Notes: generated from the letters alone by a model not told the origin. A stretch of 36,142 nt of DNA from an uncultured Pseudomonadales bacterium (GCA_905480475.1 CAJQQO010000248.1:1-36142), one strand, 5' to 3'. Shown: positions 3,028 through 7,782, counted from the first letter of the stretch. Made by a program: numbers and translations.

Positions 3028-3063
3028 CCAATATATTATTAATTGAAAACTGAGTATTCCTTT

Positions 3064-3888
3064 ATGCCTGAAGGTCCAGAAATTCGTAGAGCTGCTGACA
3101 AAATAGAAGCGGCCATTAAAGATCAAGTCATTGAGGAGATCACATTTGGCCTGCCTAAGCTCAAGCGCTTCACAGCGAAATTGCGAGGCCATCGAGTATC
3201 GGACGTAGAAACACGCGGCAAAGCATTACTGACACACTTTGACAACGGCTTAACCATTTATTCGCACAATCAACTCTAAGGTGTATGGCGGCTGTGCAAA
3301 CGCGGTACGCTACCTAAAACCAAACGGCAACTGCGCCTTGCATTACACACGTCTACTACTAGTGCACTGCTTTACAGCGCTTCGGATATCAGCGTTTGGC
3401 AACGCGAGGAGCTAAATCAACACCCGTTTCTTGCTCGCATCGGGCCCGATATTCTTTCGCCGACACTGCGCTGGCAAGATTTGGCCAAGCGCCTGCAAAG
3501 CAAAGCATTTTCTGGCCGCTCACTTGCTGCGCTTTATCTCGATCAGCATTTTCTTGCTGGCATCGGCAATTATTTGCGCAGTGAAATTCTTTTTGCCGCC
3601 GCTGTTGACCCCTCAGCAAAGCCTAAAGATCTTTCGCGAATGCGAATTAATACACTGGCACGACAAACACTCAGCGTAAGTCGTCGCAGCTACCATAGCG
3701 CTGGTATCACACTTTCTGATAAGCAATACCGCTGGCTTTGCGACCAGGGGTTGAGTCATGCCGAGGCGAGGTTCATGGTTTTTGGACGCAGTAATTTACC
3801 CTGTCATATCTGTTTTAAAAAGATTAAGCGCACAGAAGCTGGTGCGCGGCGACTATATAGCTGTGCAAACTGTCAAGCGATTCAATAA
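3064..3888 (+). pseudogene. nei: Endonuclease VIII (Nei) interrupted by one in-frame TAA
   Basis: Read through a single stop, this frame encodes a 274-codon Nei DNA glycosylase/AP lyase that removes oxidised pyrimidines (E. coli Nei has 263 residues). It begins [18 protein letters not shown], with the catalytic Pro2 and Glu3, and has Lys53 in the [10 protein letters not shown] block. It reaches SHNQL at residues 67-71, then TAA at 3277-3279, and resumes in the same frame with GVWR. E. coli Nei has a Tyr at that point, so one base change from TAT/TAC explains the stop. The rest is well conserved: LLYSASDI, HPFLARIGPDIL, FLAGIGNYLRSEILF, and a C-terminal zinc finger (CHIC...CANC) with the DNA-binding Arg. 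There is no frameshift. It is either a young nonsense pseudogene, a readthrough gene or a sequence error. Confidence 0.9.
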
Positions 3889-4366: not shown

Positions 4367-4446
4367 GAAATCCAGCTCCGATTTCTGGTTACATTTTGAT
4401 CAACTAAAAATATAAGCCGCCTCCTTTCGAGGTGTCGGCTTTTTTA
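4367..4446 (+). ncRNA. Candidate small RNA (about 80 nt)
   Basis: A perfect TATAAT at 4356-4361 is followed by a 5' hairpin (GAAATC 4367-4372, GATTTC 4380-4385, 7-base loop). An A/T-rich unstructured linker of about 28 bases comes next, then a strong intrinsic terminator at 4414-4446. Hairpin, A-rich linker and U-tailed terminator is the usual build of an Hfq-type small RNA. No known family was recognised. An alternative is that it is a terminated leader of the downstream operon, 330 bases away. Confidence 0.4.
4414..4446 (+). terminator. Intrinsic terminator
   Basis: AAGCCG (4414-4419) pairs with CGGCTT (4436-4441), with an inner CCTC/GAGG helix and a CTTTC loop, directly followed by a run of T to 4445. 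No protein-coding gene ends within 500 bases upstream, so it most likely ends a short RNA starting near 4367. Confidence 0.75.
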
Positions 4447-4772: not shown

Positions 4773-5378
4773 ATGCAAGAGTATTTAGGGCAGTATCAGA
4801 ATACATTAAATATCAATCGTATTTCATGGCTCGCGTTGATACCCAGCATTGCGAGCATTGTATTTTTTAACAGCGCGGCGTTAGCCGATGCGGACGGCTG
4901 GGATAATAACTGGAATTTTAAACGCGGTGGAGACAAGAGCGTTGTCCTACTTCAAGCAGATCTAATTAAAAAAGGCGAGTCGGATTACTACGACAACGTC
5001 GGCAAAATCACATACACCAATTACGACTATTCAAATACGACTAACACTAGTACGGATAATAGTATTTCTAATGACAGTCGAACGGGCGCATTCAACGACG
5101 TTTATTCTGTGGGTGCAATCAATGCATCAACAAATTCTATAACGATAGATGGCTCAAATAATGATGTCATGATTGATAGCAACTCTGAAGCCAGAGAGTC
5201 CATCAATAGCAGCATTAGCATTACGGAGAGTGTTTTATCTCGATTGGGCGAGAGCGAGTCGGCAAACGGTGAGGCAGCTCCTGAGGAAGGCACTTCTGAC
5301 CCAGAGGAAGACATGAATGCTAACAGCACAACGGCTTTTGATAATGCTATTCCAACCATTTCAATCCAGCCACGATAA
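4773..5378 (+). CDS. HfaA-like small secreted protein of a CsgG/HfaB locus
   Basis: This 201-residue protein is the first gene of the operon. The N-terminus has a long n-region followed by a hydrophobic stretch at about residues 17-37 ending FNSAALA, a signal-peptidase-I type site before DADGW. The mature part is Asn/Ser/Thr/Asp-rich with beta-strand-like text (SVGAINASTNSITIDGSNND) of the kind seen in HfaA and curlin-related proteins, and it has no Cys. An acidic tail (PEEGTSDPEED) follows. AGAGGG at 4758-4763 is a good ribosome-binding site. The stop overlaps the next start by one base (TAATG), implying translational coupling to the CsgG-like exporter. The HfaA label rests on position and composition, not on motif identity. 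The inferred role is an exported fibre or anchor subunit. Confidence 0.6.
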   Translation: MQEYLGQYQNTLNINRISWLALIPSIASIVFFNSAALADADGWDNNWNFKRGGDKSVVLLQADLIKKGESDYYDNVGKITYTNYDYSNTTNTSTDNSISNDSRTGAFNDVYSVGAINASTNSITIDGSNNDVMIDSNSEARESINSSISITESVLSRLGESESANGEAAPEEGTSDPEEDMNANSTTAFDNAIPTISIQPR

Positions 5379-6583
5379 TGCGCAAAATTAACAGAATACC
5401 TCGCCCTTACTTCGTCAGCCACTACTGTATTTCAGATTTGGCGAGGCAAGTTATTATTTTGATTTTTTTGTTTTCTACCGCAGCTTGTAACGTTATTCAG
5501 CCGTCGCTTAGCAAAAATCAAAACCTTGGTCTTGGACCGCCAATCACCGATGTTGTTACGCCGTTCGATACGGCGCTTGAGTGTCTTGATGGACGGATCT
5601 CTAAGCGTATAACGTTTTCGGTTGGCGCTATTCTCGATCAGACTGGTAAAGAACAATACACTAACGGTGGCTCGGGTAAGTATATCTCCCAAGGGGCGGG
5701 AGATATCGTTCAGTCGGCACTATTTCGATCGGGCGCGACGGTTATTAATCGCCGCGATCCTCGAATAATGGACACAGAGGTTCGCTGGGGGTTAATTGAA
5801 AAACAAGATTTTATCCGTTCCGATTTCTTTGTTACTGGAAGCATTAATAGCCTCGACTTTTTGCCAGGTGGGGGGCTGGATTTGCAGGTGAGGGGTGTCG
5901 GTCCGCGATACCGCCAACATCGCATTTTAGTCGGTTTGGATATCTCGTTAACGGAGGCAAAAACCGGCCGTATTGTTGCGAATATTCCTATCCAAAAACA
6001 AATTGTCGCAACTGAAACCGGCCTAGGCATCGGCAGATTTTTCGGGGACGTGCTTGTTAATCTAGATACTGGCGGCGGCTATCGAGAGGCCACACAATTT
6101 GCTGTTAGACAAATGCTAAATTTCGCGACATTTGAACTCATCACGCAACTAATGAAACCCGAAAGATACTTAGATTGCAGAAAAAAAATTAGTCACATTC
6201 ATGGCCTTAACGAAAATTCGCGATCTGCACGCGCTATTTATGAATATGAATTACGTTTAAACGAAGAGCGTAAAGTAGAAAAAAATCGAGCAAAGTCAGG
6301 GCTACATCAAGTTGCTTTGGGCTCCACGCTAGAGACTTCTGATGAAAACCAGGCAGTTTTACAAAACGCAGGCGCCAGCAGCCTGAATACAGATGTCTCC
6401 GATGTAGAGAATTCAAGTCCAGGCTCATCTCAAAAAGCGCCTTCCGATATGGAAGGCTCAAGTACAGACACAGCAAATAATGTCCGTGCAATCACCAATG
6501 ATAAGTCGAGTACCACGATTTACTCAGACGCTGAGGATATTGAGAGCAATCTTGAGAAAAAAAATAGAATCCTCAATCAATAA
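5378..6583 (+). CDS. CsgG/HfaB-family outer-membrane lipoprotein (secretion channel)
   Basis: The product is a 401-residue lipoprotein of the CsgG superfamily, closest in style to HfaB. Such proteins form a multimeric outer-membrane pore for curli or holdfast-anchor subunits. A hydrophobic stretch ends FSTAAC, giving a lipobox-like site with Cys37. The CsgG core follows at about residues 60-270: GAGDIVQSALFRSG, FVTGSINSLDF, LVGLDISLTEAKTGRIV, QKQIVATETGLGIGRFFGD and an AVRQMLNFATFELI helix. These match the HfaB pattern of VQKQI...G.G..RF. Unlike E. coli CsgG (about 277 residues), it has an acidic low-complexity tail from about residue 285 to 401, of unknown role. It is coupled to the upstream gene by a 1-base overlap. 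Family confidence is good; the cargo is inferred from neighbours. Confidence 0.85.
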   Translation: MRKINRIPRPYFVSHYCISDLARQVIILIFLFSTAACNVIQPSLSKNQNLGLGPPITDVVTPFDTALECLDGRISKRITFSVGAILDQTGKEQYTNGGSGKYISQGAGDIVQSALFRSGATVINRRDPRIMDTEVRWGLIEKQDFIRSDFFVTGSINSLDFLPGGGLDLQVRGVGPRYRQHRILVGLDISLTEAKTGRIVANIPIQKQIVATETGLGIGRFFGDVLVNLDTGGGYREATQFAVRQMLNFATFELITQLMKPERYLDCRKKISHIHGLNENSRSARAIYEYELRLNEERKVEKNRAKSGLHQVALGSTLETSDENQAVLQNAGASSLNTDVSDVENSSPGSSQKAPSDMEGSSTDTANNVRAITNDKSSTTIYSDAEDIESNLEKKNRILNQ

Positions 6584-6609
6584 CAGTTAGAAATGAAAGG
6601 TTTTTCAAC

Positions 6610-6625
6610 GTAACCCTACTGTTAC
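6610..6625 (+). promoter_or_regulatory. Hairpin 1 of a potential kissing-loop pair
   Basis: GTAAC (6610-6614) and GTTAC (6621-6625) form a 5-bp stem around the loop CCTACT (6615-6620). The loop is the exact reverse complement of the loop of the next hairpin. The element lies in the spacer between the exporter gene and the acidic secreted-protein gene, within the presumed operon mRNA. Confidence 0.5.
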
Positions 6626-6637
6626 TAAAAAAAATAA

Positions 6638-6659
6638 CCTTCAAGAGTAGGCTTGAAGG
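6638..6659 (+). promoter_or_regulatory. Hairpin 2 of a potential kissing-loop pair
   Basis: CCTTCAAG (6638-6645) and CTTGAAGG (6652-6659) form a perfect 8-bp stem around the loop AGTAGG (6646-6651), which is complementary to loop 1. There is no T-run after it on the plus strand, so it does not end the operon. On the minus strand it is followed by TTATTTTTTTT, so it could stop antisense transcripts. It sits 24 bases before the ATG of the last gene. Confidence 0.6.
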
Positions 6660-6683
6660 CAATTGACCTAAGAGAGAAAGATT

Positions 6684-7730
6684 ATGAACAAAAAAATGGG
6701 AATTTTAACCTCAGCAATTCTACTCGCATCATCAATGGCAAACGCCGACAATGATAGCTTGTCAGAAACCCTCGGTGGCCAGCTTAATAACACATTAGCG
6801 AATTACGATGGCGCTATAGCTGGTATCGCTGTCAATGACGAAGATATCAACGCTAGCGTTTCTATCGGAGATGTTAACGACATTATTTTAGAAGCTGTAA
6901 ACATCGACACTGAGATCGCTGTTAACCGCATCTCAACAACCGTTTTAGGTGTTGCCAATACTGGTAACGTATCTGTAGCTTTAGAACAGTATGACATTTC
7001 TGGCTCTGCTAGCGAATCTGCTGAAGGCTCACTTTCTGGCAACGAGTCTTGGTCTTTAGATCAGGCTATCGGCGGTTCTTTGTCTTCTGACGAAACTGTT
7101 ACTTTCACATATGACCGTGATGAAAGTTCAACTGATGGCGAGATGAATTCACAGTACTCTACTGACTATGATTACTTCTCAGATATTGACGATGACACTA
7201 TCGGCGGTGAGGTTGGTGGGGAGTACGCTGCTTCTTTTGACGGACAGCTCGCTGGCTCTAACTATCGTGATGATCTAGGTGGTTCACTTTCTGGCGCCGA
7301 ATCAGGTAGCGCTTATGCAAGCGGCTATGCGACTGATTTCGACCAAGAAGTCGACATTGATGATGATACATACGGTGACTCATACTCCGACTACAGCACT
7401 CAAAACGACACCACAAATGCAACAGGTACTCTAACTGACACTTTAGCCGTTTCGGCTTTTGCTAATAGTCAAGAAGCGTATTCTGCTGGTTTTTCTGGTT
7501 CAGCCGCAACTTCAAGTTCAATTGAAGCTGCAGCAGCAGGTACTGTTATGGATGTTGCTGTATTTAACATCGCGTACAACACCGGTGAATTGGACGCGTC
7601 TATCAACATCGACGTAGACCATTCATTTGACGCGCAGAATATCGACTTCTCTACCAACGCAACTGGCGCTATCTTAACGGGTAACACCAGTGTCGGTTAC
7701 GCCCCTGCTGATATTTCAGTAGGTGAGTAA
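6684..7730 (+). CDS. Acidic Cys/Lys-free secreted repeat protein, HfaD-like by position
   Basis: This 348-residue protein has a clean signal peptide (MNKKMGILTS through ANA, cleavage after Ala21). The mature chain has no Cys and no Lys, only three Arg, and is rich in Asp, Ser, Gly and Ala. A motif pair flanks the middle: residues 84-98 (STTVLGVANTGNVSV) and 323-337 (STNATGAILTGNTSV) align at 8 of 15 positions. The middle holds three GSLS units (115, 131, 200) and two DIDDDT blocks (167-172, 224-229) that could bind calcium. It is the third gene after a CsgG/HfaB homologue, the hfaD position, so an exported surface adhesin or fibre subunit is likely. TAAGAGAG before the ATG serves as ribosome-binding site. 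I do not recognise a named family. Confidence 0.65.
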   Translation: MNKKMGILTSAILLASSMANADNDSLSETLGGQLNNTLANYDGAIAGIAVNDEDINASVSIGDVNDIILEAVNIDTEIAVNRISTTVLGVANTGNVSVALEQYDISGSASESAEGSLSGNESWSLDQAIGGSLSSDETVTFTYDRDESSTDGEMNSQYSTDYDYFSDIDDDTIGGEVGGEYAASFDGQLAGSNYRDDLGGSLSGAESGSAYASGYATDFDQEVDIDDDTYGDSYSDYSTQNDTTNATGTLTDTLAVSAFANSQEAYSAGFSGSAATSSSIEAAAAGTVMDVAVFNIAYNTGELDASINIDVDHSFDAQNIDFSTNATGAILTGNTSVGYAPADISVGE

Positions 7731-7744
7731 TTCTTTTAGAAAAT

Positions 7745-7782
7745 ATAAAATCACTAGCTCTAGTAGCTAGTGATTTTATTTA
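7745..7782. terminator. Intrinsic terminator of the CsgG-like operon (bidirectional)
   Basis: A perfect 15-bp stem (ATAAAATCACTAGCT at 7745-7759 against 7765-7779) has a 5-base loop CTAGT and a T-rich 3' side. It lies 15 bases after the stop of the acidic secreted protein, and can also serve the minus-strand genes converging from the right. Confidence 0.85.

Follow-up and report, generated by a model that had tools for sequence, protein, structure and literature searches.

A kissing-loop RNA candidate between the pore and cargo genes of a putative third CsgG-type secretion lineage

Three plus-strand genes form a compact trio in a stretch of DNA from an uncultured Pseudomonadales bacterium (GCA_905480475.1, CAJQQO010000248.1; the window is this whole stretch of 36,142 nucleotides). 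They encode a small secreted protein (ORF1), a CsgG/HfaB-type lipoprotein predicted to form an outer-membrane channel (ORF2) and an acidic secreted protein (ORF3), referred to here as the cargo. All three lie where a first-pass annotation of the sequence had placed them. The order that it described, with a CsgG-like gene between those of a small and a large secreted protein, is seen in the window and in relatives. The coupling claimed for the first pair is visible as a TAATG overlap, in which the ORF1 stop codon occupies 5376-5378 and the ORF2 ATG lies at 5378. The gap between ORF2 and ORF3 measures 100 nt and contains two hairpins (table 1).

Table 1. Features of the gene trio and its surroundings, in window coordinates.
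Feature	Position	Strand	Description	Basis
Terminator-like hairpin 5' of trio	4418-4434	+		consensus scan; weak alone
ORF1	4773-5378	+	small secreted protein, 201 aa	homologs in same place in relatives
ORF2	5378-6583	+	predicted CsgG/HfaB-type outer-membrane lipoprotein channel, 401 aa	
Kissing-loop RNA	6610-6659	+		shuffles, covariation, comparison of loci
Hairpin 1	stem 6610-6614/6621-6625, loop 6615-6620	+	loop CCTACT	
A-rich linker	6626-6637	+	12 nt	
Hairpin 2	stem 6638-6645/6652-6659, loop 6646-6651	+	loop AGTAGG	
ORF3 (cargo)	6684-7730	+	acidic secreted protein, 348 aa	
Cargo strand-turn-strand motif 1	6813-6866	+	residues 44-61	
Cargo strand-turn-strand motif 2	6927-6983	+	residues 82-100, TTVLGVANTGNVSVAL	
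Cargo strand-turn-strand motif 3	7557-7610	+	residues 292-309, FNIAYNTGELDASI	
Cargo strand-turn-strand motif 4	7644-7700	+	residues 321-339	
Hairpin 3' of trio	7745-7779	.	probable terminator	consensus scan listed minus strand; symmetric stem by reading

Within the genus, a whole-genome search gave a match only in the window's own genome. The contig also carries thyA, whose identity to full-length members of the genus is 73-86% (78-86% for most), in most cases higher than to other families. This gene fits the genus, so the contig belongs with the assembly, and a binning error as its source was rejected. The genome holds two further CsgG-family proteins, one of them within a lipoprotein cluster; on contig C149 (L006 539-2295) a CsgG-family gene sits inside a cluster of three lipoproteins. 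An operon of three lipoproteins, one of them CsgG-like, is described from Acinetobacter baumannii islands (PMC3224125). Elsewhere in the window, a possible frameshift divides a Nei/MutM-like DNA glycosylase (3043-3888) between two frames, at 3043-3279 and 3481-3888.

Most of what is known of CsgG-family pores comes from curli and the Caulobacter holdfast. ORF2 scores 37.7 bits with the Pfam CsgG model (PF03783, cut-off 20.8), which places it in the family. The closest named model is NCBIfam HfaB (NF037935), with 90.9 bits, below the equivalog cut-off of 300. The earlier assignment of the second gene product to the CsgG/HfaB-type lipoproteins agrees with both scores. Cys37, the predicted lipidation site, follows a hydrophobic signal and is invariant in 16 homologs; the C-terminal tail is of low complexity. 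Against group profiles, ORF2 reaches 441.6 bits with its own clade, 133.6 with broad HfaB, 75.7 with Caulobacterales HfaB and 28.6 with curli CsgG, scores that ally it with HfaB and not with the curli type. A tree of 54 sequences, the deeper branching order of which is poorly supported, separates the ORF2 clade from curli CsgG (support 100) and from an HfaB clade that takes in proteins of Vibrio, Photobacterium and Variovorax plasmids. Judged from profiles and tree, ORF2 and its relatives constitute a third CsgG-type secretion lineage, short of the HfaB cut-off in NCBIfam.

The predicted ORF2 model has a mean pLDDT of 60, with a core of about 70-90. Its best PDB matches in a fold search are CsgG structures, including the membrane-bound 4uv3 (Z 12.3, residues 57-281). 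Where CsgG has transmembrane strands, the model has long hairpins at 150-193 and 199-231; their strands (150-168/174-193 and 199-222/225-231) make up two predicted transmembrane beta hairpins. Lipoproteins of the PelC, LpoB and GNA1162 types share the core fold and turn up in the same search, and ORF2 could be a periplasm-facing ring of this kind, lacking a membrane channel, in which case the secreted proteins would use another route. We consider such a ring very improbable: PelC-like matches rank below CsgG and cover the core, and ORF2 has both long hairpin insertions of membrane-bound CsgG and reaches 133.6 bits with HfaB-type channels. With its predicted channel features, ORF2 counts as a CsgG-family member of the HfaB type. 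The grouping with channel-less LpoB/PelC types, which the first-pass annotation had named as fatal to its reading, was not what the fold search returned.

Relatives were sought by scanning named genomes with ORF2 aligned to its relative from another family. The scan yielded 33 loci, mostly from Acinetobacter, plus Methylophilales LSUCC0135, Nitratireductor aestuarii and Brucella oryzae; a Pacificitalea manganoxidans plasmid locus was added from a plasmid collection. The first proven pair joins the window to a Moraxellaceae locus (L039), with 51% identity for ORF2 and E values of 2e-9 for ORF1 and 8e-6 for ORF3. Trio order is kept in more than 30 other loci of several classes, and an overlap of the first two genes is seen at almost every Acinetobacter locus. 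The arrangement is not due to chance, because it recurs in more than 30 relatives examined; relatives of the first and third genes do co-occur with CsgG-like genes, against the lack of co-occurrence that the earlier reading had named as its refutation. Flanking genes vary from one lineage to the next, the behaviour of a module. ORF2 is present in 29 of 299 Moraxellaceae genomes, all of one genus.

Several loci depart from the common form. In one operon copy (L149 805-2185, genome G948) the channel gene is mostly deleted, and the small gene, the RNA element and the cargo are retained. The channel gene of B. oryzae (L076 6039-6919) appears split over two frames, and intact relatives exist. A gene for an outer-membrane beta-barrel-like protein lies 3' of the trio in two Rhizobiales loci (L045 7951-8832 and L076 8310-9059). 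At L042 4540-6932 (genome G028) a distant CsgG-family protein adjoins several small secreted proteins with other repeats (VEVGNVVNYA...AQIAIGSM), which are probably another cargo type; a two-partner-secretion-like pair is also found there.

The cargo has neither Cys nor Lys in the 327 residues past its signal peptide, as had been reported, and its calculated pI is 4.05. Among the long ORFs of the window, it alone has neither residue. The chance of zero Lys, at the window's Lys frequency, is about 2.5e-8, and that of zero Cys about 0.03. Searches of Pfam and NCBIfam at E 1 returned nothing, and no curlin repeat was found. In the architecture computed for the cargo family, a hypervariable middle separates one pair of motifs near the N-terminus from another pair at the C-terminus. 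Motifs of the kind ALNLAVNTGDIDASVN and TTAIGAVNTGSITVTV have 54-71% mean pairwise identity, and the middle has 8%. By BLAST, the N-terminal half of one cargo aligns to the C-terminal half of another, which therefore indicates internal duplication. A low-confidence AlphaFold2 model (mean pLDDT 43.6) places a strand-turn-strand at each of the four motifs, at pLDDT 50-60.

ORF1 contains an SDYY motif followed by SVGAINASTNSITIDGSNNDVMIDS and has no family match in Pfam or NCBIfam. It carries a short stretch resembling the cargo motifs (SIGTVNTSTNNINIDGSNN in relatives). A profile of the cargo repeats scored ORF1 no higher than shuffles. Motif-matrix tests lean towards a common motif, 119 of 3400 shuffles reaching the observed value. 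The short motif common to ORF1 and the cargo is only suggestive, because motif and register were picked by eye.

The first-pass annotation had described the locus as HfaABD/CsgG-like. Its HfaB-type channel and its gene order stand; a set of HfaABD orthologues does not emerge, as ORF2 falls below the HfaB cut-off and in its own clade. The trio resembles Caulobacter HfaA-HfaB-HfaD (PMC6707917) in gene order, in an HfaB-type CsgG channel and in two Sec-secreted partners, but differs in the placement of ORF2, in its RNA element, in a cargo unrecognized by HfaD repeats and in that no linked holdfast genes were seen at trio loci. The HMM comparison with the Hfa families that had been proposed gave a divided result: ORF2 is HfaB-like; ORF1 aligns with HfaA at p 0.0015 and 17% probability in hhalign, the signal peptide contributing, so that homology is only suggested; and ORF3 aligns with HfaD only across the signal peptide region (p 0.022). 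Homology of the cargo to HfaD is not claimed, because shuffled copies scored higher than the real cargo with the HfaD repeat HMM, and this candidate was dropped. The match to HfaABD is firm in gene position but not in the homology of the partners. A true holdfast anchor, in which the three proteins would be HfaA, HfaB and HfaD and would tether an adhesive polysaccharide at the outer membrane on the Caulobacter model, is unlikely. Gene order and HfaB similarity agree with it, as do the weak ORF1-HfaA profile match and the T-x-A-(I/V)-G in which, by eye, cargo and HfaD both end near the C-terminus. It is opposed by the 90.9 of 300 bits for ORF2 and its separate clade, by HfaD repeats that do not recognize the cargo, and by polysaccharide genes, none of which were seen near the trio in the window or in the loci read, just as the first-pass annotation had found none.

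Curli, the type VIII secretion system (CsgG, CsgE, CsgF, CsgA and CsgB), shares with the trio the CsgG fold and secreted strand-turn-strand repeat proteins. It differs in its separate CsgG clade, in its curlin repeats and in CsgE and CsgF. Neither of the latter was found in the window's genome (88% complete), in line with the first-pass annotation, and the E. coli control was positive. A curli identity was rejected because CsgE/CsgF and curlin repeats were not found. A curli-like amyloid fibre is a broader proposal, with ORF3 as the polymerizing subunit and ORF1 as the nucleator, like CsgA and CsgB. The CsgG-family pore, the short motifs of ORF3 with a similar one in ORF1, and the absence of Cys and near-absence of Lys all fit. 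We nonetheless hold the fibre to be somewhat unlikely: the cargo has no hit to a family or to curlin repeats, its motifs number only four and are interrupted by a long variable insert, CsgE and CsgF were not found, and profile search does not support the ORF1 motif. One report (PMC10038080), citing other work, mentions a CsgG orthologue of A. baumannii, which may or may not be the trio gene, as affecting matrix thickness where there is no complete curli system.

Two things escaped the first-pass annotation: the spread in Acinetobacter and an RNA element in the gap between ORF2 and ORF3. As RNA, hairpin 1 reads GUAAC(CCUACU)GUUAC and hairpin 2 CCUUCAAG(AGUAGG)CUUGAAGG, and their 6-base loops are exactly complementary. 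The nested part folds at -14.2 kcal/mol (z -3.2); the combined score of the element was reached by none of 1000 dinucleotide shuffles. Acinetobacter loci have such a pair at the same place, for example AUGGG(CUCGCU)CCCAU and GAAGUACUU(AGCGAG)AAGUACUUC, with loops CTCGCT/AGCGAG. The two-hairpin arrangement occurs in 61 of 65 loci, a redundant set with 27 distinct elements. Across the 26 distinct Acinetobacter elements 98.2% of cells are paired and nine pairs show two-sided change; none of 500 shuffles and no slid register come close to this pairing. The loop-loop helix is invariant among these 26 except for two U-G cells, and evidence for its covariation is consequently taken from the window and from the Pacificitalea and Nitratireductor gaps. 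Between window and Acinetobacter the stems differ, and three of six loop-loop pairs differ on both sides, all of them still pairing. These pairs were counted by position, as MAFFT aligned the window element wrongly with the others. The Pacificitalea and Nitratireductor gaps have 5-bp kisses, equalled in 13 of 1000 and 1 of 1000 shuffles, respectively. The kissing-loop structure is well supported by these comparisons.

A strict detector run over 1.76 Mb of fetched sequence matched only this gap and its opposite-strand mirror. Rfam has no family for the element at gathering scores, weak window matches lying elsewhere. The window sequence has one copy in its own genome, and among 299 Moraxellaceae genomes the Acinetobacter pattern is confined to trio carriers; a mobile-element RNA repeat was rejected on these grounds. 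One copy of the pattern adjoins a locus with ORF2 largely deleted. The element was not found at the Methylophilales (L044) and B. oryzae (L076) loci, so that the export system can exist without it, and it is weaker at L045 and L113.

Across elements, G-T cells number about 36 and A-C cells 3, a count that is not a probability because the rows are related; the excess of G-T cells points to the sense RNA as the folding strand. The hairpins could instead work as DNA or as an antisense terminator. The A-rich linker is a T-run on the minus strand, where hairpin 2 resembles a terminator in a consensus scan. A terminator, however, does not need mutually complementary loops that change together between lineages, and the G-U pairs lie on the sense strand and hardly at all on the opposite one, which renders either role distinctly improbable. 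A kissing RNA of the operon message is the preferred reading. It is not a sense terminator, because no T-run follows it on the sense strand. Since it ends 24 nt 5' of the ORF3 ATG and leaves the ribosome-binding region uncovered, a direct block of translation is also unlikely. Its most likely role would be differential decay or processing of the two message parts, by which, acting in cis, it may let the cargo be made in excess of the pore. Stem-loops that give the genes of one message different stability are a known bacterial principle, according to PMC5927463. Those described there are likewise structured RNAs inside an operon whose products are perhaps wanted in different amounts; they differ from the trio element, which is absent from Rfam and whose two hairpins are tied by a covarying loop-loop helix.

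Plasmid sets from the HfaB clade offer a further comparison (L114, L115 and L116). As in the trio, an HfaB-like channel adjoins secreted repeat proteins, but no such RNA element was detected in them. On the Vibrio alginolyticus (L114 3926-5858) and Photobacterium (L115 3968-5981) plasmids, HfaB-, HfaD- and HfaA-like genes follow one another in that order (B-D-A); in V. alginolyticus the set adjoins replication and partition genes. On the Variovorax plasmid (L116 1306-8744), an EAL-domain gene lies upstream of an HfaB-like gene, which is followed by one for a very large, S-layer-like repeat protein.

On balance, we favour the view that the trio is a self-contained operon for outer-membrane export and surface assembly, with a cargo excess tuned by RNA. 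The following mechanism is envisaged. (i) ORF2 lipoproteins with the CsgG/HfaB fold would oligomerize into an outer-membrane channel. (ii) ORF1 and ORF3 would leave the cytoplasm via Sec. (iii) Both would traverse the ORF2 channel without CsgE or CsgF and remain on the cell surface, possibly in an adhesive role. (iv) ORF3 would stack through its four conserved strand-turn-strand motifs, the hypervariable acidic middle facing outward. (v) ORF1, which has a similar short motif, would probably serve ORF3 as linker, nucleator or anchor. (vi) The mRNA between channel and cargo genes would fold into two hairpins kissing by six base pairs. (vii) This compact element would separate the fates of the message parts, by differential decay or processing, and yield more cargo than pore. 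A wider proposal, for and against which we are evenly balanced, is that a previously undescribed cis-acting kissing-loop RNA sets the ratio of surface protein to pore in a third CsgG-type lineage with its own class of repeat cargo; stems would have been exchanged, and loops in part, between the window's marine gammaproteobacterium and Acinetobacter, and perhaps in alphaproteobacteria too.

The RNA is undescribed in Rfam and in the open literature searched, where no published description of the trio was found either. The trio probably exports two repeat-bearing proteins to the surface via a CsgG/HfaB-type pore. It would add a third CsgG lineage, frequent in part of Acinetobacter and also present on a marine alphaproteobacterial plasmid, with an uncharacterized two-protein cargo. 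It provides a testable route to substrate choice by CsgG-family pores that lack CsgE and CsgF. The RNA element, as a compact natural kissing complex, would permit a direct test of cargo-to-pore tuning inside a single operon.
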